The notes: a model not told the origin generated them from the letters alone. A DNA stretch of 64,000 nt from Kiritimatiellota bacterium (GCA_013151865.1 JAADHN010000073.1:1-64000), one strand, 5' to 3'. Counted from the first letter of the stretch, positions 34,448 through 49,163 are shown. Made by a program: numbers and translations.

Positions 34448-36226
34448 ATGGCGACAACCACTCAGTCGAGAGATCCGAGCGCCGCCCGGAAGACCGGGTC
34501 GGTTTCCGGTGTCAACGGGAATATGGTCACGGTTGCTTTCGACACTGCCGTCACGCAGAATGAAGTGGCGTACATATGCGTCGGCGAGGCGCGCCTGAAA
34601 AGCGAAGTGATACGCGTACGGGGAAACGCGGCGGACCTGCAGGTTTTCGAAAACACTCGGGACATTCGCGTGGGCGACAGGGTGGAGTTTACGGGCGACC
34701 TATTGTCCGTCGAGTTGGGCCCCGGTCTTCTGGGTCGGGTTTTCGACGGTTTGCAGAACCCCCTGCCGCGGCTTGCGGAGCAGGCCGGTGCGTTCCTGCA
34801 GCGCGGTCTGTACCTTTATCCGCTGGATCAAGACACGGAGTGGGACTTCACGCCTCGGGTGAAGACGGGTGCGATCCTGAAAGCCGGCGACATGGTCGGC
34901 ACGGTGCCGGAAGGCATTTTCGAGCACCGCATCATGGTGCCGTTCGGCTGGTCCGAGGAGTGGCGAGTGACCTGGATTGCCGAAGCCGGTCCGCACAAAC
35001 TGTCGGACGCAATTGCCGGGCTCACGAACGGGGTCGAGGAGCGCACCGTAACTCTGGTTCAGCGGTGGCCCGTGAAGGTCCCCATCACGGCGTATTTGGA
35101 GAAGAGGCTGCCCTCCGAGCCCCTGGTGACCCAGCAACGGATCATCGACACGTTTTTTCCGGTTGCCAAAGGCGGTACGTTTTGCACACCCGGACCGTTC
35201 GGGGCCGGCAAGACGGTCCTCCAGCACGCGTTGGCACGGTATTCGGAAGTGGATGTGGTTGTGGTGGCGGCCTGCGGCGAACGGGCCGGGGAAGTTGTGG
35301 AAATCCTCCGGGAGTATCCCCATCTCGAGGACCCTCGCACCGGTCGCAGCCTCATGGACCGGACGGTGATCATCTGCAACACCAGTTCCATGCCGGTGGC
35401 GGCGCGGGAAGCATCGATCTACACTTCCGTCACCATTGCCGAGTATTACCGGCAAATGGGTTTGAACTGCCTGCTGCTGGCCGACTCCACCTCGAGATGG
35501 GCCCAGGCCGTTCGCGAAATGTCAGGTCGCCTCGAGGAAATCCCGGGCGAGGAGGCGTTTCCCGCCTACCTCGAATCCCTCATCGCCGGGTTTTACGAAC
35601 GGGCCGGACTGACGGTTCTGAATGACGGAACTCGGGGCTCCGTGACTATTGGGGGGGCGGTCAGTCCCGCGGGCGGGAACTTCGAAGAACCGGTGACGCA
35701 GGCGACGCTGAAAGTTGTGGGCTGTTTCCTCGGGCTTTCTCGCGAGCGAGCGAATGCGCGCCGTTTCCCGTCGATCCATCCGCTCGAAAGCTGGAGCAAG
35801 TACCCGAGCATCGCGAACGCCCGGGACCTTGCCCGGGCCGGGGCCGTACTGCGACGCGGGAACGAAGTGGACCAAATGATGAAGGTCGTGGGGGAAGAAG
35901 GGACGCAGCTTGAGGATTTCACGACGTACCTGAAGAGCGAGTTCCTCGATGCGGTCTACCTCCAGCAAAACACGTTCGACGAAAACGACGGCGCCACCTC
36001 GGCCGAACGACAGCGATACTGCTTTCACAAAGTCATCGAAGTCTTGGAGGGGGCGTTCGATTTCAAGGACAAATCCGAGGCCCGGGCCTTCTTTCAACAG
36101 CTCCGGCAGCATTTCATCGACTGGAATTACACTGCCTGGGGCTCCCTGGAATTCGAGGAAGCGGAACACCGCATCGACGCAGAACTCAAGCGCGGGGCCG
36201 GAGCGCCCGTGGCCGCGGTCGCGTGA
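34448..36226 (+). CDS. ntpA: V/A-type ATPase catalytic subunit A
   Basis: A 592-residue subunit that binds and hydrolyses (or makes) ATP. The Walker A loop GPFGAGKT occupies residues 249-256; the A-type-specific non-homologous insert precedes it (residues ~110-200, including [22 protein letters not shown]). Further marks are [18 protein letters not shown], the Walker B strand [30 protein letters not shown] and [22 protein letters not shown]. Length is typical. I start at ATG 34448 rather than a codon seven residues earlier. It pairs with ntpB, whose start follows 79 bases later. Confidence 0.97.
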
Positions 36227-36305
36227 GGGGGGGCCGGTCCATCGCCGCCGGGGGACCGAACTTTCCTGCACGGCACGGGGTCTGCACCAAACACTGTGGA
36301 ACGCC

Positions 36306-37622
36306 ATGAGAAAAGTTTACCATCGCATCATTCAGATCAGTGGGAATGTGATCACCGTCGAATCCGCCGACATCCCGTATGCTTCCTTGGCCGAAGTCAC
36401 GAGCAGTCGCGGCACGTCGCTGGCCCAGGTCATTCGCCTCGAAGGCCCCCGTGTCTCGCTGCAGGTTTTTGCGGGCAGCCGGGGCATTTCCACCGACAGC
36501 CAGGTGCGTTTTCTGGGACGCCCGATGCAGGTTTCCTCCTCGGACGCCTTGCTGGGACGGATTTTCACCGGGAGCGGGGCACCCAGGGACCGTGGCCCCC
36601 GCATCGAGGACGACTTGATCGAGGTCGGCGGTCCGTCGGTAAATCCGACACGACGGATTATTCCCCGACGCATGATCCGGACCGGTGTCCCGATGATCGA
36701 TCTCTTCAATTCTCTGGTGGAAAGCCAGAAACTGCCGATATTCTCGGTCGCCGGCGAACCTTACAACCCCCTGCTGGCGCGTATCGCCATGCAGGCGGAA
36801 GTGGACATGATCCTGTTCGGCGGCATGGGGCTCAAGTACGACGATTACCTTTTCTTCCGCAATACGCTCGAGGAGCACGGGGCGCTGAGTCGCTCGGTCC
36901 TCTTCGTACACACGGCCGCAGATCCGGTGGTGGAATGCCTCCTGGTTCCGGACCTGACCCTGGCGGTGGCCGAGCACTTTGCCGTCAACGGCAAACGCGT
37001 GCTGGTCCTGCTGACGGACATGACCAATTTTTGCGACGCCCTGAAAGAGATTTCCATCACCATGGAACAGATCCCGTCCAACCGCGGTTATCCGGGCGAT
37101 CTGTACAGCCAGCTCGCCGCCAGGTACGAGAAAGCTGTGGATTTCGAGACCGCGGGTTCGATCACCATCCTCTCTGTCACGACCATGCCGGGAGACGACA
37201 TCACCCACCCGGTCCCCGACAACACCGGGTATATCACCGAAGGTCAGTTCTATCTGCGGAACGGGCGGATTGAACCGTTCGGTTCCCTGAGCCGGCTGAA
37301 GCAATTGGTCAACGGCTCCACGCGGGACGACCATCGAGCCCTTATGGACACCATGATCCGACTGTACGCAGACTACCGCGAGTCGCTCGAGAAACAGGCC
37401 ATGGGTTTTCGCATGAGCGCCTGGGACGACAAACTGCTCAAATACGGAGCGCTTTTCGAGGAGCGAATGATGGACTTGGATGTCAATATCCCACTCGAAA
37501 ACGCCTTGGACCTCGGCTGGAAGACACTGGCCGAATGTTTCGAACCCCGGGAAACCGGCATCAAGACGGACCTGCTCCAGGAATTCTGGCCTCATGCCGA
37601 AAGTCCGGTTGACAAAGAATGA
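36306..37622 (+). CDS. ntpB: V/A-type ATPase subunit B
   Basis: A 438-residue non-catalytic nucleotide-binding subunit of the A3B3 head. Family blocks are [40 protein letters not shown] in place of a canonical P-loop, [17 protein letters not shown] (Walker B) and [23 protein letters not shown], followed by [20 protein letters not shown]. The frame is open far upstream, but that part overlaps ntpA; the ATG at 36306 begins where the family begins. Its 3' end overlaps ntpD by 29 bases, so the two are probably translated in a coupled way. Confidence 0.97.
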
Positions 37623-38211
37623 ATTGAAGGCGCAGCGGGACGCCCTGAAGCGCTTCCAGCGCTACCTGCCGACTCTTCAGTTGAAGAAGCAACAACTTCA
37701 ACTCGAAGTGCGGCGGACCCAGGACGAACTGACCGAACTCGATCGCCGTCGGCGCGAGTATCGGGATACGCTGGATCCGTGGCTGGATCTGTGGAGCGAC
37801 GACGCCGAGATCGAACGGATCGGCGGGCTGCTGCAGGTCGCCGCCTGGCGCACCGGAGTCCGGAATGTGGCGGGAATCGATACTCCCGTTTTTCTGGAAC
37901 TCCGCTTTCAGGAGGCTTCCTGGGACTTGTTTATCGCTCCGGCCTGGTTCGACGACGCGCTGGAGGCAGCCCGTAAGCTTGCCGAGTTCGCGTTGCGGCA
38001 CAAACTCCTGGAAGAACAGTTGGAGCGCCTCCAGGGCGAACTGCGCATCACGACCCAGCGAGTGAACCTCTTCGAGAAAGTCAAGATTCCGGAAGCGAGA
38101 GAGAATATCCGTCGGATTCGCATCTACCTCGGCGACCAACAGACCGCGTCCGTAGGTCGCGCCAAGATCGCCAAAGGGAAAGGTCAGGTCCGCACGGCGC
38201 AAATCGACTGA
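37594..38211 (+). CDS. ntpD: V/A-type ATPase subunit D (central rotor)
   Basis: A 205-residue rotor-shaft protein. It opens with the conserved [20 protein letters not shown] followed by long antiparallel helices ([20 protein letters not shown] ... [20 protein letters not shown]) and the C-terminal [20 protein letters not shown] signature. It transmits rotation between the A3B3 head and the membrane ring. Starts inside ntpB in another frame. The subunit F gene that usually pairs with D is not seen in the operon. Confidence 0.95.
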
Positions 38212-38346
38212 GCAGGACTCCGCCGCCGGGCAGCTCGGAACCGTCCGTACACGTGTAGAACGGCCGCACATTCGACCTGAATACAGGCAGTTCGTCGGGG
38301 GCAACCGGCAGCACGTCCGACCGCCACGGAACGGCACACAACCACC

Positions 38347-40149
38347 ATGATCGAACGCATGAAAAAAGTCGCGGTCGTCTGTTTGGCGGACGACCGCACT
38401 CAGGCTCTCGAACGCTTGCGCGAGTTGGGTACCGTCCACTTGGTGGATGTGCAGGAGCCCGCGTCGCAGGAACTCGAAGCGTTGACTCGACGCCGCGACG
38501 CCGTTGCACGGGCTTCAAGCATCCTGGCAGGGCGCAAAGGCGCTTCGGATGCGTCTCTGCCCGCCGGGGTTCGCGACCTATCCGCCGAAGACTTGGCGGA
38601 CGAAATCCTCCGGCTGTCGAGCCAATCGGCGGAAGCGGAAAACAAGGCGAGCGAATGGCTGCGTATTCGGCGTCTGATCGAGCCCTGGGGCAGTTTTTCG
38701 ATGGCCGACCTGCAACGAATTGAGGCAGGCGGCTTCCAAGTGATTCTCGCCACTGCCGCGGCCGATCAACTCCCGGAACTGCCGGAGGGAGCTGTTCTCC
38801 GAGAGATCCGGCGTGAAGGCAAGACCGTTTGGTTCGTCGTGATTGTGCCGGACGGTGTGGAAGTGGACGTACCGCGCGCGCCCCTGCCCGAAACAACCGA
38901 CATCGAACAAGTTGACGCGGCCCTGGCCGCTTCCCGGCGCCAGCGCGAGGAAACCGAGGCGATGTTGGCCGCCCTGAAGTGCCTGACCGACCGGCTCAAG
39001 CAAGGTCTGGATCGCCTGGACGCGGAAATCGAATACATCCGCGCTCGGGACGGCATGGGCGAGAAAGGCAGGCTGGTCTTTCTTCAGGGATTTGTTCCTG
39101 TCTCTCAGGCGTCCCGCTTGGCCGAAGCCGCGCAAGAGCACGGCTGGGCGGTACGCATCGAAGATCCGGCGGATGACGATGAACAGGTGCCGACGCGAAT
39201 TGTCCTGCCCAAATGGGTCGAGCCCATCCGATCCGTGTTCCAGGCCCTCGGAATCACGCCCGGATATCGGGAAGTGGACATCAGCGCCTGGTTCCTGCTT
39301 TTCCTGTCGATCTTTTTTGCCATGCTGATCGGAGACGCCGGGTACGGTCTGCTGTTTCTGGCGGTCACGCTGGTCGCACGCCGGAAATACCGAACAGCCC
39401 CCGCTTCCCCCTTTTGGCTGTTCGGCATCTTTTCCGCCGCCACGATCATCTGGGGAGTGATGACCGGAACGTACTTCGGCGTTCAGGGAGTGCCCGCCCC
39501 ACTGGCCGGGTTCGAGGTCGCATGGCTTAAGGATCCGACCAATGTCCAACGACTTTGTTTCTTGCTGGGCGCGATTCACCTCAGTATCGCCCACGGCTGG
39601 AACGCCCTGATATTCGCCCCCCGACTCAAGGCGCTGGGCGAGATCTCGTGGGGGTTGATTCTGTGGGGGAATTACTTCCTGGCTCGAACTCTGGTCGTGG
39701 GCGACCCCATGCCTTCGTTTACCGTGCCGGTCTTTTACGGTGTGGGCATCGTCGGCGTGGTTTTGTTTTCCTCGCCGCAGCGGAACCCGCTGAAAACCGT
39801 GGGCGCAGGGCTGGGCGCTTTGCTTTTGGGGATCGTCGGCAGCTTCGTGGACTTGGTGTCTTACATCCGCCTGTATGCGGTCGGGGCTGCCTCTCTGGCC
39901 ATCGAGCAGACATTCAACCAAATGGCCGCGGGGATGCACTTGCCGTTCTGGCTGACGCCCCTGGTGGCCGCCCTGATCCTCGCCGCCGGGCATGGTTTGA
40001 ATATTCTTCTCGGCGCCATGGCAGTGGTTGTGCACGGAATTCGGCTGAACGTGCTCGAGTTTTCGACGCACCTCGGCCTCCAGTGGGCCGGAGTCCCGTA
40101 CCGTCCGTTCGCGCACCGCGAGCCGGCCGCATCGGGACCCGAAGGGTAA
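38347..40149 (+). CDS. ntpI: V/A-type ATPase membrane subunit I
   Basis: A 600-residue subunit providing the ion half-channels. The cytoplasmic N-terminal half (residues ~1-290) starts MKKVAVVCLADDRTQALERL and includes coiled coils. The C-terminal half has about seven membrane helices (FLLFLSIFFAMLIGDAGYGL; NVQRLCFLLGAIHLSIAHGW; FVDLVSYIRLYAVGAASLAI). The last of these contains SYIRLYAVG, with the conserved arginine needed for ion translocation through the K ring. Length and motif order are normal. It lies 135 bases after ntpD. Confidence 0.96.
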   Translation: MIERMKKVAVVCLADDRTQALERLRELGTVHLVDVQEPASQELEALTRRRDAVARASSILAGRKGASDASLPAGVRDLSAEDLADEILRLSSQSAEAENKASEWLRIRRLIEPWGSFSMADLQRIEAGGFQVILATAAADQLPELPEGAVLREIRREGKTVWFVVIVPDGVEVDVPRAPLPETTDIEQVDAALAASRRQREETEAMLAALKCLTDRLKQGLDRLDAEIEYIRARDGMGEKGRLVFLQGFVPVSQASRLAEAAQEHGWAVRIEDPADDDEQVPTRIVLPKWVEPIRSVFQALGITPGYREVDISAWFLLFLSIFFAMLIGDAGYGLLFLAVTLVARRKYRTAPASPFWLFGIFSAATIIWGVMTGTYFGVQGVPAPLAGFEVAWLKDPTNVQRLCFLLGAIHLSIAHGWNALIFAPRLKALGEISWGLILWGNYFLARTLVVGDPMPSFTVPVFYGVGIVGVVLFSSPQRNPLKTVGAGLGALLLGIVGSFVDLVSYIRLYAVGAASLAIEQTFNQMAAGMHLPFWLTPLVAALILAAGHGLNILLGAMAVVVHGIRLNVLEFSTHLGLQWAGVPYRPFAHREPAASGPEG

Positions 40150-40284
40150 GAGTGCGGCTGTATCGAAGCGGCCGCCCGCCGCCGGGCGCGCAGCAGGCTG
40201 CGACGCCCGCAACCGCAGCGGAAACGGTGAGCAAAAACTGTTGGGATCGATAAGCGTATCTCGATCAAAAGGAGCCTCTCGCAA

Positions 40285-40761
40285 ATGGATGCATCTCTGG
40301 TTGCCTCACTTGGAAATGTTGGTGCCGCCGCGGCGCTGAGCTTCGCCGCCATGGGCTCGGGACTGGGAACAGGCGCCGCCGGCATGGCCGCCGTGGGCGC
40401 TTGGAAAAAGTGCTTCGCCCAGAACCGGGCAGCCCCCTTTCTACTGGTGGCTTTTGTCGGCGCCCCGCTCAGCCAGACGATCTACGGAATGGTCCTGATG
40501 CTCAAAATCGTGGCAACGGCCACCGAAGCAGCCAAAGGCGGAAGCATGAATTTCGCCGGGCTCATCGCCGCCGGTGTTCTCGGTGGGATGGCCATGGGCA
40601 TCTCCGCTTGGATGCAGGGCCGAGCCGGGGCAGCCGCCTCGGACGCCCTCGCCGAAACAGGTCGGGGCTTCGGCAACTATCTCATCGTGCTCGGCGTCAT
40701 CGAAACCGTGGCGATTTTCGTCCTGGTATTCATCCTGTTCGCCCTGAAAGTGACCGTTTGA
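40285..40761 (+). CDS. ntpK: V/A-type ATPase proteolipid subunit K
   Basis: A 158-residue four-helix membrane protein forming the rotor ring, made of two fused hairpins. Only the second hairpin carries the ion-binding carboxylate, Glu140 (VLGVIETVAIF). Ser63-Gln64 (APLSQTIYG) and Gln111 (WMQGRAG) match the positions of Thr64, Gln65 and Gln110 of Enterococcus hirae NtpK, which with Glu139 bind sodium, so a Na+-driven or Na+-pumping enzyme is possible (inference). AGGAG lies 10 bases before the ATG. A hairpin follows the gene and probably ends the operon. Confidence 0.95.
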   Translation: MDASLVASLGNVGAAAALSFAAMGSGLGTGAAGMAAVGAWKKCFAQNRAAPFLLVAFVGAPLSQTIYGMVLMLKIVATATEAAKGGSMNFAGLIAAGVLGGMAMGISAWMQGRAGAAASDALAETGRGFGNYLIVLGVIETVAIFVLVFILFALKVTV

Positions 40762-40803: not shown

Positions 40804-40995
40804 CGCCGCCGCACAACGCTCCGGCAGACCATTGACAAGCGGGCAGCTCCCTCCTACATTGTCGGCGCCATTGGGTCCGCGCCGGCAGGACACGTTTATT
40901 TGTATCCGGCGCGATCTGTGGCGCTCCTCGACCCGACACGGAGTGACTGAACACGGGGCGATCCGGCCGGATCGCCCCCCCGCGAGGGAAGATCC

Positions 40996-41907
40996 ATGAG
41001 CGAACCGGCACAGAAACCGACCCCCGCACTCCAAGTTGTCCTCGGATTCGACTGCGAAACGGACATCGGGAGCTGGACCCCATACTATGAGGGGCTGGTC
41101 AACGGGACCCCCGTCATCCTCGATCTTCTCGACAAACATGGCATCACCGCCACATTCTTTTTTACCGGTCACAGCGTACGCGCCCATCCGGAAAGCGTCC
41201 GTCGTGTTCTGACGGCCGGGCACGAAGTCGGGTGCCACAGCATCTACCACGAAACCGTGGGCGATTCCCTGTTCGACATTCCCGGCCTCTATCCACTGCT
41301 CCCGGAGGAAGTCCCGAACCGACTTCGCACCGCGACCGAATGGGTCGAAGCGGTATCGGGAACGCGGCCCGTTTCGTTCCGGGCGCCCCGTCTCTTCGGC
41401 TCCACCGCAATGCTCAATGCACTGGAAGACTTGGGATACATGACCGACGCCAGTTACCCCATGTACTATTTTCGGGACCGCCTCGTCCCGTATCACCCCA
41501 GCCGCACGGATTGGACTGCCGAAGGCGACCTGCGTATCGTCGAACTGCCGAACTTCGCAGACCTATCCATGCAATGTCGCGACCCGTTCGGACGGGACGC
41601 GGACCAATGGCCGCTTTTCCGCACGGAGAACGCCGACGCGCTGTTGAGGCATATCGACGGCTACAGCACCTACTGTATCGACGCGGGGGTGACGCCGTTC
41701 CTGTGTTTTTATTTTCATCCGTGGGAGTTCTGGCCCATGCCCCAGGGCGAGATTCATTACGGCGAAGGAGCGGTCCGGCCGGACCCGTTCATCGTCAAGA
41801 ATTGCGGCCCGTATGCCGCAAGCCAATTGGACCGCCTGCTGGCGGCGCTTATCGAGCGCGGGGCCCGGTTCTGTCAGGCGCGCCAAATCGCAGAGGAGAT
41901 GACATGA
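40996..41907 (+). CDS. NodB-type polysaccharide deacetylase
   Basis: A 303-residue cytoplasmic protein of the carbohydrate esterase 4 fold. The first metal/catalytic region is GFDCETD (Asp19), and the metal histidines are His81 and His85 in EVGCHSIYHE. RAPRLFGS (NodB motif 3) and FYFHPWEF (late catalytic His) follow. The FDCE form is like PuuE/PgdA-type enzymes that hydrolyse amides such as allantoin or N-acetyl sugars. GAGGGAAG precedes the ATG. The stop overlaps the next start by four bases (ATGA), so the pair is translationally coupled and probably acts on the same compound. Confidence 0.9.
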   Translation: MSEPAQKPTPALQVVLGFDCETDIGSWTPYYEGLVNGTPVILDLLDKHGITATFFFTGHSVRAHPESVRRVLTAGHEVGCHSIYHETVGDSLFDIPGLYPLLPEEVPNRLRTATEWVEAVSGTRPVSFRAPRLFGSTAMLNALEDLGYMTDASYPMYYFRDRLVPYHPSRTDWTAEGDLRIVELPNFADLSMQCRDPFGRDADQWPLFRTENADALLRHIDGYSTYCIDAGVTPFLCFYFHPWEFWPMPQGEIHYGEGAVRPDPFIVKNCGPYAASQLDRLLAALIERGARFCQARQIAEEMT

Positions 41908-43064
41908 AAGCCATTCCCGACGCCGAATACCAAATGCGAATGACCCGATTCCAGGCGAATATCAAGGCCGCCGGTCTCGATGCGGCCCTGGTGCACTCGA
42001 ACGAGGCCGACTTTGCCAATGTCCGGTATCTCACCGAGTACTGGCCGACGTTCGAGACTGCGGGGGTTTTCGTTCCGGCGGAGGGCCCCCCCATCTTGCT
42101 TATCGGCCCGGAGAGCGAAAACTACGCACGCGGTCGCAGCAAGGTCACCAATATCGAGATGATGGTCGAATACCGCGAGTCGGCGGACCCGGAATACCCC
42201 GGCATCCCGGTCGCAACGTTTGCGGACGTCGCGGCGAAAGCTCTTCCGGGGCGGACGCTCCATCGCCTCGGCCTTGTCGGTACCACGATCCTGCCCTTAC
42301 CGGTCTATGAAAGTCTGCAGCGGGACCTTCCCGGCGTCGAACTGGTCAAAGCCGACGATGCCCTGTCGGACCTTCGGAGCATCAAGAGCGATACGGAAAT
42401 CGCGCTGATGCGCGAGGCGTTCCGAATCAGCGAAATCGCTGTCGAAGCCATCTTGAACGAGATCAAGCCGGGCATGACCGAACTACAGGCCATCGGAATC
42501 GCCCAGCGGGAAATTTATGCCAACGGCGGAGAGTACGAGGGGCACGCCCTGTATTGTTTCGGGGGTCCGGCCACTTCGAACGCGATTTCCCGCCCAACTC
42601 ATCGCCCGCTCAAAGCACACGAAATTATCCAGGTGAATATCGGCGCGAGGGTGGGCGGGTACTCGTCGAGCGTGGGACTGCCCATCTCGTTCGGTCCGCT
42701 CCCGGTCGAACAGAAGCGGCTGGTCGAGTTCGGCCTCGAGGCGCACTTCAAAACGCTCGAATTACTCCGGGCGGGGCGGCCGGCGGCGCAGGTCGTGTTG
42801 GATTACGAACGTTTTGTGGAGGAACGCGGCTTTTCCGAGTATATGCTCTACGGCCCCTGTCACGGTATCGGGATGATGGAAGTCGAACGCCCCTGGATGG
42901 AGTCCTCATCCGAGTATGAGTTGCAGGAGAACATGACGTTCCAGGTCGACACGTTCTTCTGTTCCGGCGGCGAGTTCGGACTCCGCTGGGAGAACGGGGT
43001 GCGCATCACGAGAGACGGCGCCGAAAAACTGTCCAGCCGGTTCATGAAGCTCGTGGAATTGTGA
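41904..43064 (+). CDS. M24/creatinase-like pita-bread hydrolase lacking metal ligands
   Basis: A 386-residue protein of the Xaa-Pro aminopeptidase/creatinase fold: creatinase N-domain (~1-135), then the pita-bread domain. The usual metal ligands D-D-H-E-E read differently: VNIGARVGGYSSSVG has Asn and Ser where the two Asp belong, the His remains (GPCHGIGM), VDTF has Asp for Glu, and GLRWENG keeps the last Glu. Loss of the Asp pair resembles creatinase, a metal-free amidino hydrolase, so C-N bond hydrolysis other than peptidase activity is likely. Coupled to the deacetylase by ATGA. Open frame upstream overlaps that gene and is ignored. Confidence 0.83.
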   Translation: MKAIPDAEYQMRMTRFQANIKAAGLDAALVHSNEADFANVRYLTEYWPTFETAGVFVPAEGPPILLIGPESENYARGRSKVTNIEMMVEYRESADPEYPGIPVATFADVAAKALPGRTLHRLGLVGTTILPLPVYESLQRDLPGVELVKADDALSDLRSIKSDTEIALMREAFRISEIAVEAILNEIKPGMTELQAIGIAQREIYANGGEYEGHALYCFGGPATSNAISRPTHRPLKAHEIIQVNIGARVGGYSSSVGLPISFGPLPVEQKRLVEFGLEAHFKTLELLRAGRPAAQVVLDYERFVEERGFSEYMLYGPCHGIGMMEVERPWMESSSEYELQENMTFQVDTFFCSGGEFGLRWENGVRITRDGAEKLSSRFMKLVEL

Positions 43065-43165
43065 GTCTGCACACCTCCCGCTCGGCGTACAGGTGCGTTT
43101 CGGTTCAGGTCGGTTCTTCTCGGAGATCGGCGACCCGGACCGGAGTCACACAGAAGGAACGTGCC

Positions 43166-43531
43166 ATGGCAAACGACGACTTCGGCCGTTGCGTCTGGTT
43201 TTTTCCGGACGGCGACCTGCCGCCTCCCGGCGACGGCGAATTCGAGGGTCACGAATCGCTTCTGATCCTGAACCCGAACAGGCGGGCTGCAGAAGTTCGG
43301 CTGACCGTGTATTTCGAGGATCGCCCGGCGGACCGTCTCGATCCGTTCCTGGTTGAGGCCGAGCGTGTTCGATGTATTCGCATGGACCGCCCGATCGACG
43401 GATACCGAGTTCCGTACGGACAGTACGCCCTGAAGATCGAAAGTACGACGCCGGTCGTCTGCCAGATCGGTCGGGCCGATGTCCGACAGCCGAACCTCGC
43501 CTATTACACCGTCCTGGGCTTCCCCGGCTAG
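43166..43531 (+). CDS. Anabaena sensory rhodopsin transducer (ASRT) family protein
   Basis: A 121-residue soluble beta-sandwich protein. The N-terminal CVWFFPDGDLPPPGDGEFEG, then HESLLILNPNRRAAEVRLTV, YFEDRPADRLDPFLVEAERV and VVCQIGRADVRQPNLAYYTV match the ASRT family (sensory rhodopsin transducer, PF07100) along its full length. The Nostoc protein relays light signals from a microbial rhodopsin, but most homologues occur without rhodopsin, near carbohydrate genes, and are thought to bind small ligands. No rhodopsin is in the window. AAGGA eight bases upstream sets the ATG at 43166. It sits between a creatinase-like gene and a glycosidase-like gene. Confidence 0.82.
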   Translation: MANDDFGRCVWFFPDGDLPPPGDGEFEGHESLLILNPNRRAAEVRLTVYFEDRPADRLDPFLVEAERVRCIRMDRPIDGYRVPYGQYALKIESTTPVVCQIGRADVRQPNLAYYTVLGFPG

Positions 43532-43540
43532 CCGGGGAAG
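43519..43540 (+). terminator. Perfect hairpin across the ASRT stop codon
   Basis: CTTCCCCGGC (43519-43528) and GCCGGGGAAG (43531-43540) are exact reverse complements separated by TA, so the TAG stop lies in the loop. It lacks a T-tract. It may weaken read-through into, or stabilise RNA ahead of, the next gene. Confidence 0.5.
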
Positions 43541-43596
43541 GGTCAGCGGGGCGTGTCGGCGACCGGCGGCGGCATATTCGGCTGGAGAGCCACGGC

Positions 43597-45318
43597 ATGC
43601 TCAAAATCTTCCGCAGCCCCCGAGCAGATTTCGAACACGATGCCGAACGCGCTCATCAAGTCTACACCGAAGACGAATTGCGTCGTATTGCCGATGCGGG
43701 CTTCAATGCGGTGTGGATCCGAGTTATCTACCGGCGCCTGTTCCGCCATCGAGCCTTTCCTGAATTCGGCGGTTCCGCGGCGTGGCTCGGTCACCTCAGA
43801 AGCGTGGCCAAGCGCGGCGAAAAAGTGGGCGTCAAACTGGTCGTGTACTGCCAGGAGCCGTTTGGGTTGAGCCAGAGCGACCCGTTCTGGAAAAACCATT
43901 GCGAGGCGGCCGGCGCCACATGGGACTACCCGTACGGCACGGAATCGGCCCCCGGCCCCATGCGCGCACTCTGCGTCAGTTCCACCCCGGTCCGCGACTT
44001 TCTCGCGGAGGCTTCCGGCGCCCTGGTGCGTGAATTGCCCGGACTCGGCGGCGTGGTCACCATCACCGCGTCCGAATTCATGTCCCATTGTTACAGCCAC
44101 TACGCCACCAATGTTCCGGACGACCGGCAACCGCCTCCCCTGAACTGCCCCCGCTGCCGAAAACGCCCTTCCACTGACGTGGTGGCCGACGTGCTCAACT
44201 TGATGCGACAGGGAATGGATTCCGCTGATCCGACGGTACCGCTGATCGCCTGGAACTGGTCCTGGGTCATGTACGAGCCGGATCCTCAGCCCCACATCCT
44301 GAACCGGCTTGCCCCCGGGATCGATGTGCAGGCGGACTTCGAGCGCGGCGACACGAAAACCGATCCAACGGGAAGGGAAATCGAGATCAACGAATACTCG
44401 CTGTCTTTTGTCGGACCGTCCAACCGTTTTCTCGAGGTGAGAAACGCCGCACGGCGACAAGGACGCCGGGTGTTCGCCAAACTGCAGATCGGAACCACTC
44501 ACGAACTGGCCACGGTCTCCAACCTGCCACTCATTGACCGACTCTTTCGCAAAGCTGCCCGTGCTCGGAAAATCGACATCGAGGGCTTCATGGGATGCTG
44601 GAACTTCGGGAATGAACTCAGTCTGAATACGATAGCGTTCAACTTTTTTCTGTCGGACGCGTGCCCGCCAAACGAAGAAGAGGCCCTGGCGCGGTTGGCT
44701 GACCGAGAATTCCCCGGTTGCAGGCCGGAGTCTGTAATCGCCGCTTGGCATGGTTTCGGGGAGGCCTTCGATTACTACCCGTTCTCCATACCGTTCCTCT
44801 ACTATTCTCCGATCAATTACGCACTGGCCCTGCCCTTGCGTCCCGGCCCGCTCCATGCCAAACCGATCGGGCGAAGCTGGCTGTTGGATCCACGGGACGA
44901 CCGCGACGATCCAAGCCGCTGCTTCGGGCCCTTCACACCGGAGGACATTGCGGAACGGCTCGTTCGAATGAGTAAACTGTGGGGAAAGGCGCTGGACGCT
45001 TACGAGAATGGACTTGCAAATGCCGAGGGTTCGACGATGAAGGCCGCCGAATTGGCCGCCGCCCGTGCGGTGTATGCCTGTCTGCGGAGCACGGCGAATT
45101 ACTTTCGCCTCTATCTGTTGCGACGCACATGGCGGGATAACGCCGTGGCAGCCTTTCGAGAAATTGCGCGCGATGAACTCTGTGTACTGGAGGACGCGCT
45201 CCCGGTCTACGAGCAGGATCCACGGCAAGGCTTCCATATCGAAGGCCACGGCTATATGGTCACCCCGGCTCTGATCCGGGCCAAAGCCCTGGAGTTGCGC
45301 AGCGTGCTTGCCGTGTGA
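43597..45318 (+). CDS. Unknown cytoplasmic glycosidase-like protein
   Basis: A 573-residue protein with no signal peptide and no family I can name. The beginning (DELRRIADAGFNAVWIRVIY) and regular strand-helix alternation suggest a TIM barrel of the glycosidase type, with an aromatic-rich region (FDYYPFSIPFLYYSPINYAL) and ITASEFMSHCYSHYATN as possible active-site parts. NCPRCRKR contains a CxxC that may bind metal. The helical C-terminus covers ~150 residues. GGAG nine bases before ATG 43597 supports the start, 65 bases after the ASRT gene. Context suggests action on the same intracellular sugar derivative as its neighbours; this is inference. Confidence 0.6.
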   Translation: MLKIFRSPRADFEHDAERAHQVYTEDELRRIADAGFNAVWIRVIYRRLFRHRAFPEFGGSAAWLGHLRSVAKRGEKVGVKLVVYCQEPFGLSQSDPFWKNHCEAAGATWDYPYGTESAPGPMRALCVSSTPVRDFLAEASGALVRELPGLGGVVTITASEFMSHCYSHYATNVPDDRQPPPLNCPRCRKRPSTDVVADVLNLMRQGMDSADPTVPLIAWNWSWVMYEPDPQPHILNRLAPGIDVQADFERGDTKTDPTGREIEINEYSLSFVGPSNRFLEVRNAARRQGRRVFAKLQIGTTHELATVSNLPLIDRLFRKAARARKIDIEGFMGCWNFGNELSLNTIAFNFFLSDACPPNEEEALARLADREFPGCRPESVIAAWHGFGEAFDYYPFSIPFLYYSPINYALALPLRPGPLHAKPIGRSWLLDPRDDRDDPSRCFGPFTPEDIAERLVRMSKLWGKALDAYENGLANAEGSTMKAAELAAARAVYACLRSTANYFRLYLLRRTWRDNAVAAFREIARDELCVLEDALPVYEQDPRQGFHIEGHGYMVTPALIRAKALELRSVLAV

Positions 45319-46775: not shown

Positions 46776-49163
46776 TTATTGACGCAACCGCGCCAAGTCG
46801 GTTTTGTCGAGTGTTTCTTTGCCGTTGTCTCCGATCCGGACGGCGAATCCCGCCTTCAGGACAATGATCACCTTATCCCCGAGCATGAGCCAAGGCTTCA
46901 GGTCCGGTCGGACTTCGAGCAGCTTGAAATAGGCATCCGAGGCATAGCGAAGGCGCAGGACCGCATCCGTTTTGGCGAACTTCGCATCGATCCAGACCTG
47001 ACCGATCCGGTAGAACACTTTGCCCCTGAGGGCACGCATCGGTCGCCTCCCGTCGCCGGCGTCTTCGCGACGGGCGGTTTTCAGTCGGGAAAGCTGGGAA
47101 CTCAATTCCACAGCCGCTCTCCCGGAAACGGACGCACCGCGGAAGGCCTGCGCCGGCAGGCCGACGCCGCCCATGCCGTCCGCTCCTGGTTCGAATCTCA
47201 GTCGATCAGCCATGTCCACACGGACCCCAGCGGCTTCGGCCAGCCTTGCGAACGGAGCTTTGGCGGCGGCCGTACCGCGGGGCTTGATGGCCCCCGACCA
47301 CATGTTTCCGCCCCCCGCCGCCCCGGCAGGAGCACCCCCCGGCGCCTCTCCCATGGGAGAAAGCATTCTCCCGCCCGTTTGCGGGGAGCGGGGCCGTGGG
47401 GGCCGCCCGGCCGCCCCGGTCCGTGCGACCGAACGAACCGTATCGGGCATCACCAGATACGACGTGTACGGAGTCATGATTCCATATTCCCGGCTGAGCC
47501 GCACCACCTCGTCACGCAGTTCGGTTTTTTCCCCATTGAGTCGGATTTCATCCAGGAGATACCCGACTTTCCGCGTTGCCCACAGCCGCTCGATAAACTC
47601 GTTCTCCGAATTCTGCTGCGGGAAGCGGTCTTCATAAACCAAGACCCGCTTCTTGCCGTTCACGTCGCCTCGAAGCCGAATGGCCGTCTCTCCGGATCCC
47701 CGGTACCGCCCGAACACCAGCAACTGCGACCCCTTGAAAACGTCGGGCAGTAACTTGGGGTACACGTCGGACACCGGAATCGAACCGAAGTCCAGTTCCG
47801 GGTTCGAGAGGACCGGCTCGCTGGCCTTATCGAAGAACAGGGACACTTTCAACTCGATGTCCTCCTTCGGGCGTGCATACTCGACGGTCGCTCGCGTGCA
47901 CGCGGCCAACTGGTCGAGAAGGTGCGTGTTCACGTCATATCCCACTCCGAAACAAAAGATACGTACCCCTGTCGTGTACCGGCGCTTCACATTGTCCAAG
48001 ATGCGTTGCGGCGCCGTCGTCCCGACCGTCGGCAGACCGTCTGTAAGAAAAACCACCACGAACGGCCGGGGACCGTCCGTCTTCATGGACAACGCTCTGA
48101 GCAATGCACTGTTGATATCTGTCCCGCCGCGAGCCGGGAACCCTCGGATGTATTGCCGAGCCGCCTCGATGTTCGACGCAGTAGCGGGTGCAAGTTTCTT
48201 TCTGAAACTGTCCACGTCTGTACTGAAGCGCACGATGTTGAACCGGTCCGTTTTTCGCAGGTTGGCCACACAGTACAGCAGTGCGTCTTTGGCTTGGCCG
48301 ATCTTGTTGTCCCGGCTCATGCTGCCGCTCGTATCGAGCACGAAGACCATGTCTTTGGCCGCCACTTCCTCTTTCCGAAATTCGACCTTCGGGGAAAGCA
48401 TCAGCATGAACCACCCGTCCTTGTCTTTCTCGGGACGCCGCGTCAACAGGTTCACGCCAAAGTCCTTGTCCGAGACGGTCCAGTAGAGCAGGAAATCCCG
48501 GTCGAGGGCCTGGCCGATCGCCTCGAATCCGGCCACGGCCTCGTGATCGGTCTTCCGCACGGCATCGATCTCGTGGCTGGGCGAGTAAACGGTCTTGATG
48601 GGCTGTCGCGACCGAATGCGCACGGAGACGGTGAAGTCTTCCCGGACCCTGGAGGATCTTTCTCCGGTCCGCAGTGGATAGACATATCGGCAGATACCAC
48701 CGTCTCTGGCAACGACCTGCGAGTATCGAATCTCCACTTCCTGGGCCGCGTGGGGCGGGATCGGAAACACTTTGGCGCGAAACAGGTGGCCCCCGAGGTA
48801 TTCCAGCAGGCCCGGGTCGCGCATCCGCCGCACCACGTCGCGGTAGATGCGGGCCGCCTTGTCTTTGTCCAGCAACTCCCCCTTAATTCTCTTGCCGTCA
48901 ATGACCATCGAAAACTCCGTAACGGCCGCGTGCAGCGGCAGGGGAAAAACGTACGTGGCTTCAAGCGGTCGGGAAGTTGAGTTCTGGAAGGCCTGCCGGA
49001 CCACGGTCCAGGCAACCAGATCTCGCACGTCCACGGTGACGCGCTGATACTTGATGGCCAGGGGCGGAACACGTGTATCCGCTGGAATCATCATCCCGGT
49101 GGCGTCTGCCCGGAACGCCGCCGCCGCAAACAGAACCAGTGTCACGGAGAGCTTGGACTTCAT
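46776..49163 (-). CDS. Exported VIT and von Willebrand A domain protein
   Basis: A 795-residue envelope protein. Residues 1-22 are a signal peptide. A VIT domain covers ~40-165 (VVRQAFQNSTSRPLEATYVF; GLLEYLGGHLFRAKVFPIPP). A vWA domain follows at ~270-440 with an intact MIDAS: DTSGSMS near residue 277, a downstream Thr region (GGTDINSALLRAL) and FLTDGLPTVG. The C-terminal half has beta-rich repeats, a glycine/alanine linker (GEAPGGAPAGAAGGGNMWSG) and a final domain (VFYRIGQVWIDAKFAKTDAV) also seen in some Gram-negative VIT proteins. Metal-dependent protein binding at the cell surface is likely; the partner is unknown. GGGAG lies nine bases before the ATG. Confidence 0.9.
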   Translation of the reverse strand: MKSKLSVTLVLFAAAAFRADATGMMIPADTRVPPLAIKYQRVTVDVRDLVAWTVVRQAFQNSTSRPLEATYVFPLPLHAAVTEFSMVIDGKRIKGELLDKDKAARIYRDVVRRMRDPGLLEYLGGHLFRAKVFPIPPHAAQEVEIRYSQVVARDGGICRYVYPLRTGERSSRVREDFTVSVRIRSRQPIKTVYSPSHEIDAVRKTDHEAVAGFEAIGQALDRDFLLYWTVSDKDFGVNLLTRRPEKDKDGWFMLMLSPKVEFRKEEVAAKDMVFVLDTSGSMSRDNKIGQAKDALLYCVANLRKTDRFNIVRFSTDVDSFRKKLAPATASNIEAARQYIRGFPARGGTDINSALLRALSMKTDGPRPFVVVFLTDGLPTVGTTAPQRILDNVKRRYTTGVRIFCFGVGYDVNTHLLDQLAACTRATVEYARPKEDIELKVSLFFDKASEPVLSNPELDFGSIPVSDVYPKLLPDVFKGSQLLVFGRYRGSGETAIRLRGDVNGKKRVLVYEDRFPQQNSENEFIERLWATRKVGYLLDEIRLNGEKTELRDEVVRLSREYGIMTPYTSYLVMPDTVRSVARTGAAGRPPRPRSPQTGGRMLSPMGEAPGGAPAGAAGGGNMWSGAIKPRGTAAAKAPFARLAEAAGVRVDMADRLRFEPGADGMGGVGLPAQAFRGASVSGRAAVELSSQLSRLKTARREDAGDGRRPMRALRGKVFYRIGQVWIDAKFAKTDAVLRLRYASDAYFKLLEVRPDLKPWLMLGDKVIIVLKAGFAVRIGDNGKETLDKTDLARLRQ

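Follow-up and report, generated by a model that had tools for sequence, protein, structure and literature searches.

That ASRT acts as the sugar sensor of an operon is an idea already in print: the main text of a 2009 study (De Souza, Iyer and Aravind; PMC2739507) describes stand-alone ASRT genes in sugar-metabolism operons and proposes that their products are intracellular sugar sensors. In ectoine catabolism, the ectoine hydrolase DoeA/EutD acts before the deacetylase DoeB/EutE (PMC5924519). DoeA is assigned to the M24 family by NCBIfam. Metal-free cleavage of a C-N-type bond is the presumed reaction of creatinase and of ectoine hydrolase, and solved relatives of ASRT are tetrameric beta-sandwiches. 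Here we describe a locus in which a creatinase-like M24 protein, a deacetylase, an ASRT homologue and a barrel protein are encoded side by side. The window, by which we mean the whole 64-kb stretch of DNA analysed, comes from an uncultured Lentisphaeria-type bacterium, and the same four genes were chosen by a codon-usage gene predictor:

40996..41907, plus strand: PDA, a CE4-type polysaccharide deacetylase (PF01522) of 303 aa
41904..43064, plus strand: M24-A, a creatinase-like M24 protein (PF01321 and PF00557) of 386 aa
43166..43531, plus strand: ASRT (PF07100), a single-domain protein of 121 aa
43597..45318, plus strand: BAR, a (beta/alpha)8-barrel with a C-terminal helical domain, a predicted GH20-type glycosidase relative of 573 aa

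The layout given by the initial annotation was verified, coordinates included: PDA and M24-A share an ATGA overlap (41904-41907), and gaps of 101 bases (43065-43165) and 65 bases (43532-43596) separate M24-A from ASRT and ASRT from BAR. Inspected by eye, the N-termini of the four proteins carry no obvious signal sequence, and we therefore take the enzymes of the set to be intracellular. A plus-strand run of V-type ATPase-like genes (34523-40761) lies immediately 5' of the set, and the 234 bases between this run and PDA contain the first two of three sequence elements:

40832..40860, plus strand: a weak promoter candidate of sigma70 type (TTGACA-17-TACATT) ahead of PDA, with 1 such match found and 1.2 expected
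40955..40978, plus strand: a perfect 24-base palindrome lying after this promoter match and before the start of PDA
43519..43540, plus strand: a perfect 22-base palindrome spanning the ASRT stop codon, ahead of BAR

The 24-base palindrome (folding z = -3.5) is a possible operator or leader hairpin. The 64-kb window holds four perfect inverted repeats in total (arms of 10 bases or more, loops no longer than 6), and the two that are spacer-free both lie in this set, one before PDA and the other at the ASRT stop. As conserved operators the palindromes were rejected, related loci having no matching sequence. Beyond the set, on the minus strand, the sequence of a 795-aa protein (46776-49163) suggests VIT/von Willebrand A domains.

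The M24 protein departs from metallopeptidases at its metal site. It contains both a Creatinase_N and an M24 domain (58 bits against PF01321 and 107 bits against PF00557), and at the five metal-ligand positions, which in an M24 metallopeptidase read D, D, H, E, E, it has N245, S256, H320, D349 and E363. Relative to prolidase, the two aspartates are thus replaced by Asn and Ser and one glutamate by Asp, while H320 and E363 remain. Both Asp ligands are lost in all 78 M24 sequences compared, which represent subfamilies A (the window type), B and C, and H320, D349 and E363 are invariant among them. Because both aspartate ligands are gone, M24-A is not to be filed as a metallopeptidase, and an ordinary Xaa-Pro peptidase is ruled out on the same ground. 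The M24 proteins of these sets instead appear, from their sequences, to resemble creatinase and ectoine hydrolase, so that "creatinase-like", the term first applied to the window protein, proves correct in a strong sense. This resemblance stops short of family membership: M24-A scores 55 bits against DoeA, for which the family cut-off is 613, and creatinase turned up only as a weak PDB match (E = 1e-6), short of a curated creatinase assignment. W47-P48, E51, E70, Y98-P99, E326 and E328 are also conserved across A, B and C, and together with H320, D349 and E363 they suggest an active site. Elsewhere, one M24-A copy (G197:C211) carries four in-frame stops and is apparently decaying.

PDA matches PF01522 at 72 bits (cut-off 23.1), and with its CE4 motifs intact (Asp motif, HSxxH, RxP, Asp, His) it is a member of the CE4 family; the corresponding residues (D19/E21/D23, H81/H85, R129/P131, D151 and H241) are kept in at least 95% of 27 PDA proteins encoded next to M24-A. 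Frequent substrates of CE4 deacetylases are cell-wall polysaccharides or exopolysaccharides, and this, along with the lost metal ligands, would suit a different reading, in which M24-A is a pseudoenzyme scaffold, as are Ebp1-like M24 proteins, and the set modifies envelope polysaccharide. We consider this highly improbable, given that the three subfamilies share H320, D349, E363 and the further conserved residues listed above, that the four N-termini show no obvious signal sequence, and that LacI regulators and sugar isomerases are among the neighbours.

BAR had to be placed by structure. By sequence it has no match in Pfam, NCBIfam or the PDB, even with a 16-sequence profile, and profile searches assigned it to no named GH family, GH20 or other. 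A structure model built from a five-sequence alignment (mean pLDDT 77) has a barrel and a helical C-terminal domain, with residues 158-180, which follow the strand preceding the conserved E160, poorly modelled. Foldseek searches with this model returned GH138 (E = 2e-10) and GH20C (E = 1e-9), as well as GH84 and GH89, and hhalign matched the BAR profile to proteins bearing a weak GH20b domain with 99.9% probability. As judged by predicted fold and profile, BAR is a relative of GH20-type TIM-barrel glycosidases. A DUF4838-type protein was rejected as its counterpart (hhalign probability just 24.7%). One BAR copy (G471:C13) has an in-frame TGA and, like the M24-A copy above, is apparently decaying.

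Recurrent adjacency in unrelated genomes had been set beforehand as the check on whether these genes form a unit, and it was found for M24 with BAR, for PDA with M24 and for ASRT with M24, in two phyla. The typical arrangement in Lentisphaeria is DUF6786-PDA-M24-BAR: PDA is usually, and DUF6786 (PF20583) often, upstream of M24-A, BAR is downstream of it in several loci (L047, L165, L191, L192, L196), and a LacI regulator adjoins many of the sets. In a second phylum, that of a TA06 bacterium, consecutive genes in 12 contigs encode M24-A, a creatininase-family protein (PF02633) and BAR, and in 3 other contigs the three are more loosely grouped; LacI and two zinc-type alcohol dehydrogenases often precede them. 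The conserved core is accordingly PDA (or creatininase), M24 and BAR. With PDA-M24-BAR collinear elsewhere in Lentisphaeria, M24-A and BAR recurring jointly in a second phylum, and ASRT strongly enriched next to M24 (see below), the neighbourhood of the four genes exceeds chance.

Loci that combine PDA with creatininase are almost absent (27 with PDA, 23 with creatininase, one with both). This suggests replacement of one by the other, an interchange confounded with phylum. Creatininase is also present within Lentisphaeria (L148, L154, L188, L225), and PDA was found once in the TA06 phylum (L284). A creatininase accompanying the window set was considered and rejected, as the window genome holds only a distant (28%) homologue.

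The creatininase-bearing clusters suggest two other substrates. In the first, a cyclitol or keto-sugar ring would be opened as in the Thermotoga inositol route, the dehydrogenases producing a keto or diketo cyclitol, an IolN-like enzyme hydrolysing a C-C bond and M24 acting on the product. The creatininase neighbour does match NCBIfam IolN (3-dehydro-scyllo-inosose hydrolase) at 1.6e-12, a score below the cut-off and second after creatininase, and in several TA06-phylum genomes M24-A-creatininase is preceded by LacI and a pair of zinc-type alcohol dehydrogenases. However, the window and most Lentisphaeria clusters carry a deacetylase without creatininase or dehydrogenase, and the distance of the nearest creatininase homologue in the window genome points the same way; we regard a cyclitol route as unlikely. 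The second would be catabolism of a non-sugar nitrogen compound, creatinine/creatine- or ectoine-like, by a ring-opening amidohydrolase followed by the creatinase-like M24. Creatininase and metal-free M24 do lie side by side in 21 of the 23 creatininase loci, and M24-A is weakly similar to both ectoine hydrolase and creatinase, yet the DoeA similarity scores are all far below family cut-offs, and these clusters also carry BAR, GH20b proteins, DUF6786 and sugar isomerases, which point to carbohydrates; we consider this reading very unlikely.

The window ASRT belongs to PF07100 (99.8 bits, cut-off 25, profile positions 2-119) and has TM1070 and Anabaena ASRT among its homologues. Of the ligand signature SHEshChhN, it has GHESLLILN, keeping His, Glu and Asn and lacking Ser and Cys; Met occupies the Cys position in the Lentisphaeria relatives aligned with it. 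Since Anabaena ASRT reportedly binds DNA, the window protein may act as a putative regulator. A search for rhodopsin (PF01036) gave no match in the window genome and none in the control genomes either. Within the class, 40 of 198 genomes encode PF07100. Elsewhere in the phylum it is rare: a sample of 388 genomes from the phylum, class members among them, yielded 3 matching genomes from outside the class.

When loci were picked by ASRT match alone, 29 of the resulting 48 had M24 no more than three genes away on the same strand, compared with 4 M24 among 355 other genes (odds ratio 16.6; Fisher p = 5e-11, a guide only, because related genomes are not independent). Three M24 subtypes, A, B and C, each stand beside a different amide-hydrolase fold. 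M24-B abuts ASRT at 17 junctions (-17 to +72 bases), and its sets also contain PIG-L, a DUF2334 deacetylase and a fucose/arabinose-isomerase-like protein; in 10 loci M24-C is followed by an amidohydrolase (amidohydrolase-2) and ASRT; LacI also occurs with M24-C. A recurrent family of ~670-700 aa without a Pfam match is seen in M24-B clusters (L145:15388-17433, L213:4170-6176). L213 (G484), in the TA06 phylum, is a deacetylase/isomerase/M24-B/ASRT set. L115 (G004) has ASRT with deacetylases and an isomerase and without M24. ASRT genes on plasmids (Sinorhizobium, Deinococcus, Nitrobacter, Caballeronia, Natrononativus) were set aside as examples of the tie, since M24 is absent there and the context is one of GH15, gluconate dehydrogenase or an oxidase; on two of these plasmids (L169 and L170, from Natrononativus and Sinorhizobium) two ASRT genes flank a flavin-dependent oxidase-like gene.

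M24-A is rarely accompanied by ASRT. Only 2 of about 47 M24-A loci read have one: the window, with ASRT in the cluster's interior, and G473, with ASRT at its head. This weakens the reading of the initial annotation, in that ASRT is not a fixed part of the set. ASRT might then be a passenger, inserted between M24 and BAR and without a role in the window operon. Its absence from nearly all other M24-A loci fits this, as do the 101- and 65-base gaps: in the M24-B and M24-C sets the spacing is tighter, with ASRT abutting or overlapping its neighbour. Against it, the closest relatives of the window ASRT are TA06-phylum ASRTs (55% identity), one of which heads an M24-A-creatininase-BAR cluster, and L188 in Lentisphaeria reads ASRT-creatininase-BAR. 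The ASRT tree groups the window protein with the TA06-phylum set (support 100/99, to be read with caution over long branches). We consider a passenger rather unlikely. Given its kinship with the TA06-phylum ASRTs and its rarity in M24-A sets, ASRT plausibly belongs to the window set as a facultative member.

Taken together, we give an even chance to the four genes being one form of a so far undescribed operon for the intracellular catabolism of an amide-bearing sugar, where the operon is read from gene order and gaps and the substrate and reactions are what we infer. BAR would split the glycosidic bond of an imported glycoside, releasing the sugar, and PDA, or the creatininase-family amidohydrolase in the other phylum, would take off an acyl group or open an amide. 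M24-A, as a metal-free protein resembling creatinase and ectoine hydrolase, might break a further C-N (or similar) bond, and the products would enter sugar metabolism, in some clusters via alcohol dehydrogenases or sugar isomerases. ASRT could bind the sugar or an intermediate and tune the operon or its enzymes. The substrate class would be an N-acylated sugar, cyclitol or sugar conjugate. The amide or sugar pathway sketched in the initial annotation is in keeping with the partners found (CE4, DUF2334, PIG-L, creatininase, amidohydrolase-2, sugar isomerases, GH20-type proteins and LacI), and its opening of an N-substituted sugar is a putative step. Counting against the operon are the absence of ASRT from nearly all M24-A clusters, the 101-base gap between M24 and ASRT, the lack of a transporter within the cluster, and BAR, which has no Pfam or NCBIfam family and whose predicted fold comes from a five-sequence model. 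More tentatively, and with some doubt, we suggest a widespread and so far undescribed pathway in which a metal-free M24 family would take apart an amide-bearing sugar together with interchangeable amide hydrolases whose folds are unrelated (CE4, creatininase, amidohydrolase-2, PIG-L/DUF2334); ASRT would be its dedicated soluble sensor and would thereby have a defined physiological role outside rhodopsins.

The tie between ASRT and metal-free M24 in two phyla offers a concrete, testable partner for ASRT in organisms without rhodopsin, and the cluster provides a probable context for M24-A/B/C, BAR and DUF6786, families without a described function there. If the proposed operon is real, glycosidase-rich bacteria would have a further route for amide-bearing sugars. 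In the mainly open-access literature covered, we found no account of the M24/amidohydrolase/BAR cluster or of the ASRT-M24 tie.

Of the known systems, the ASRAH/ASRT operons likewise place a stand-alone ASRT among sugar-metabolism genes; unlike in the window set, the partners named in the main text are sugar isomerase, aldolase, kinase, ABC transporter, amylase and dehydratase, with no M24, creatininase, CE4 or BAR (PMC2739507). Ectoine catabolism (PMC5924519) also pairs a deacetylase with an M24-family hydrolase, one to which M24-A is weakly similar, but M24-A is far below the DoeA cut-off, the deacetylase is a different one, and the ectoine system has no glycosidase-like or ASRT partner. The Thermotoga inositol route (IolM/IolN) shares zinc-type dehydrogenases beside a creatininase-family hydrolase, whereas the cluster's IolN score is far below cut-off and the enzymes of the route are absent from the window. 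We know of no counterpart of M24 or BAR in that route. The creatininase-creatinase pathway differs in that the cluster proteins are below family cut-offs or without curated matches, GH-type proteins are neighbours and the window has CE4 instead; it is alike in that, in the TA06 phylum, a creatininase-family protein adjoins a creatinase-like M24.
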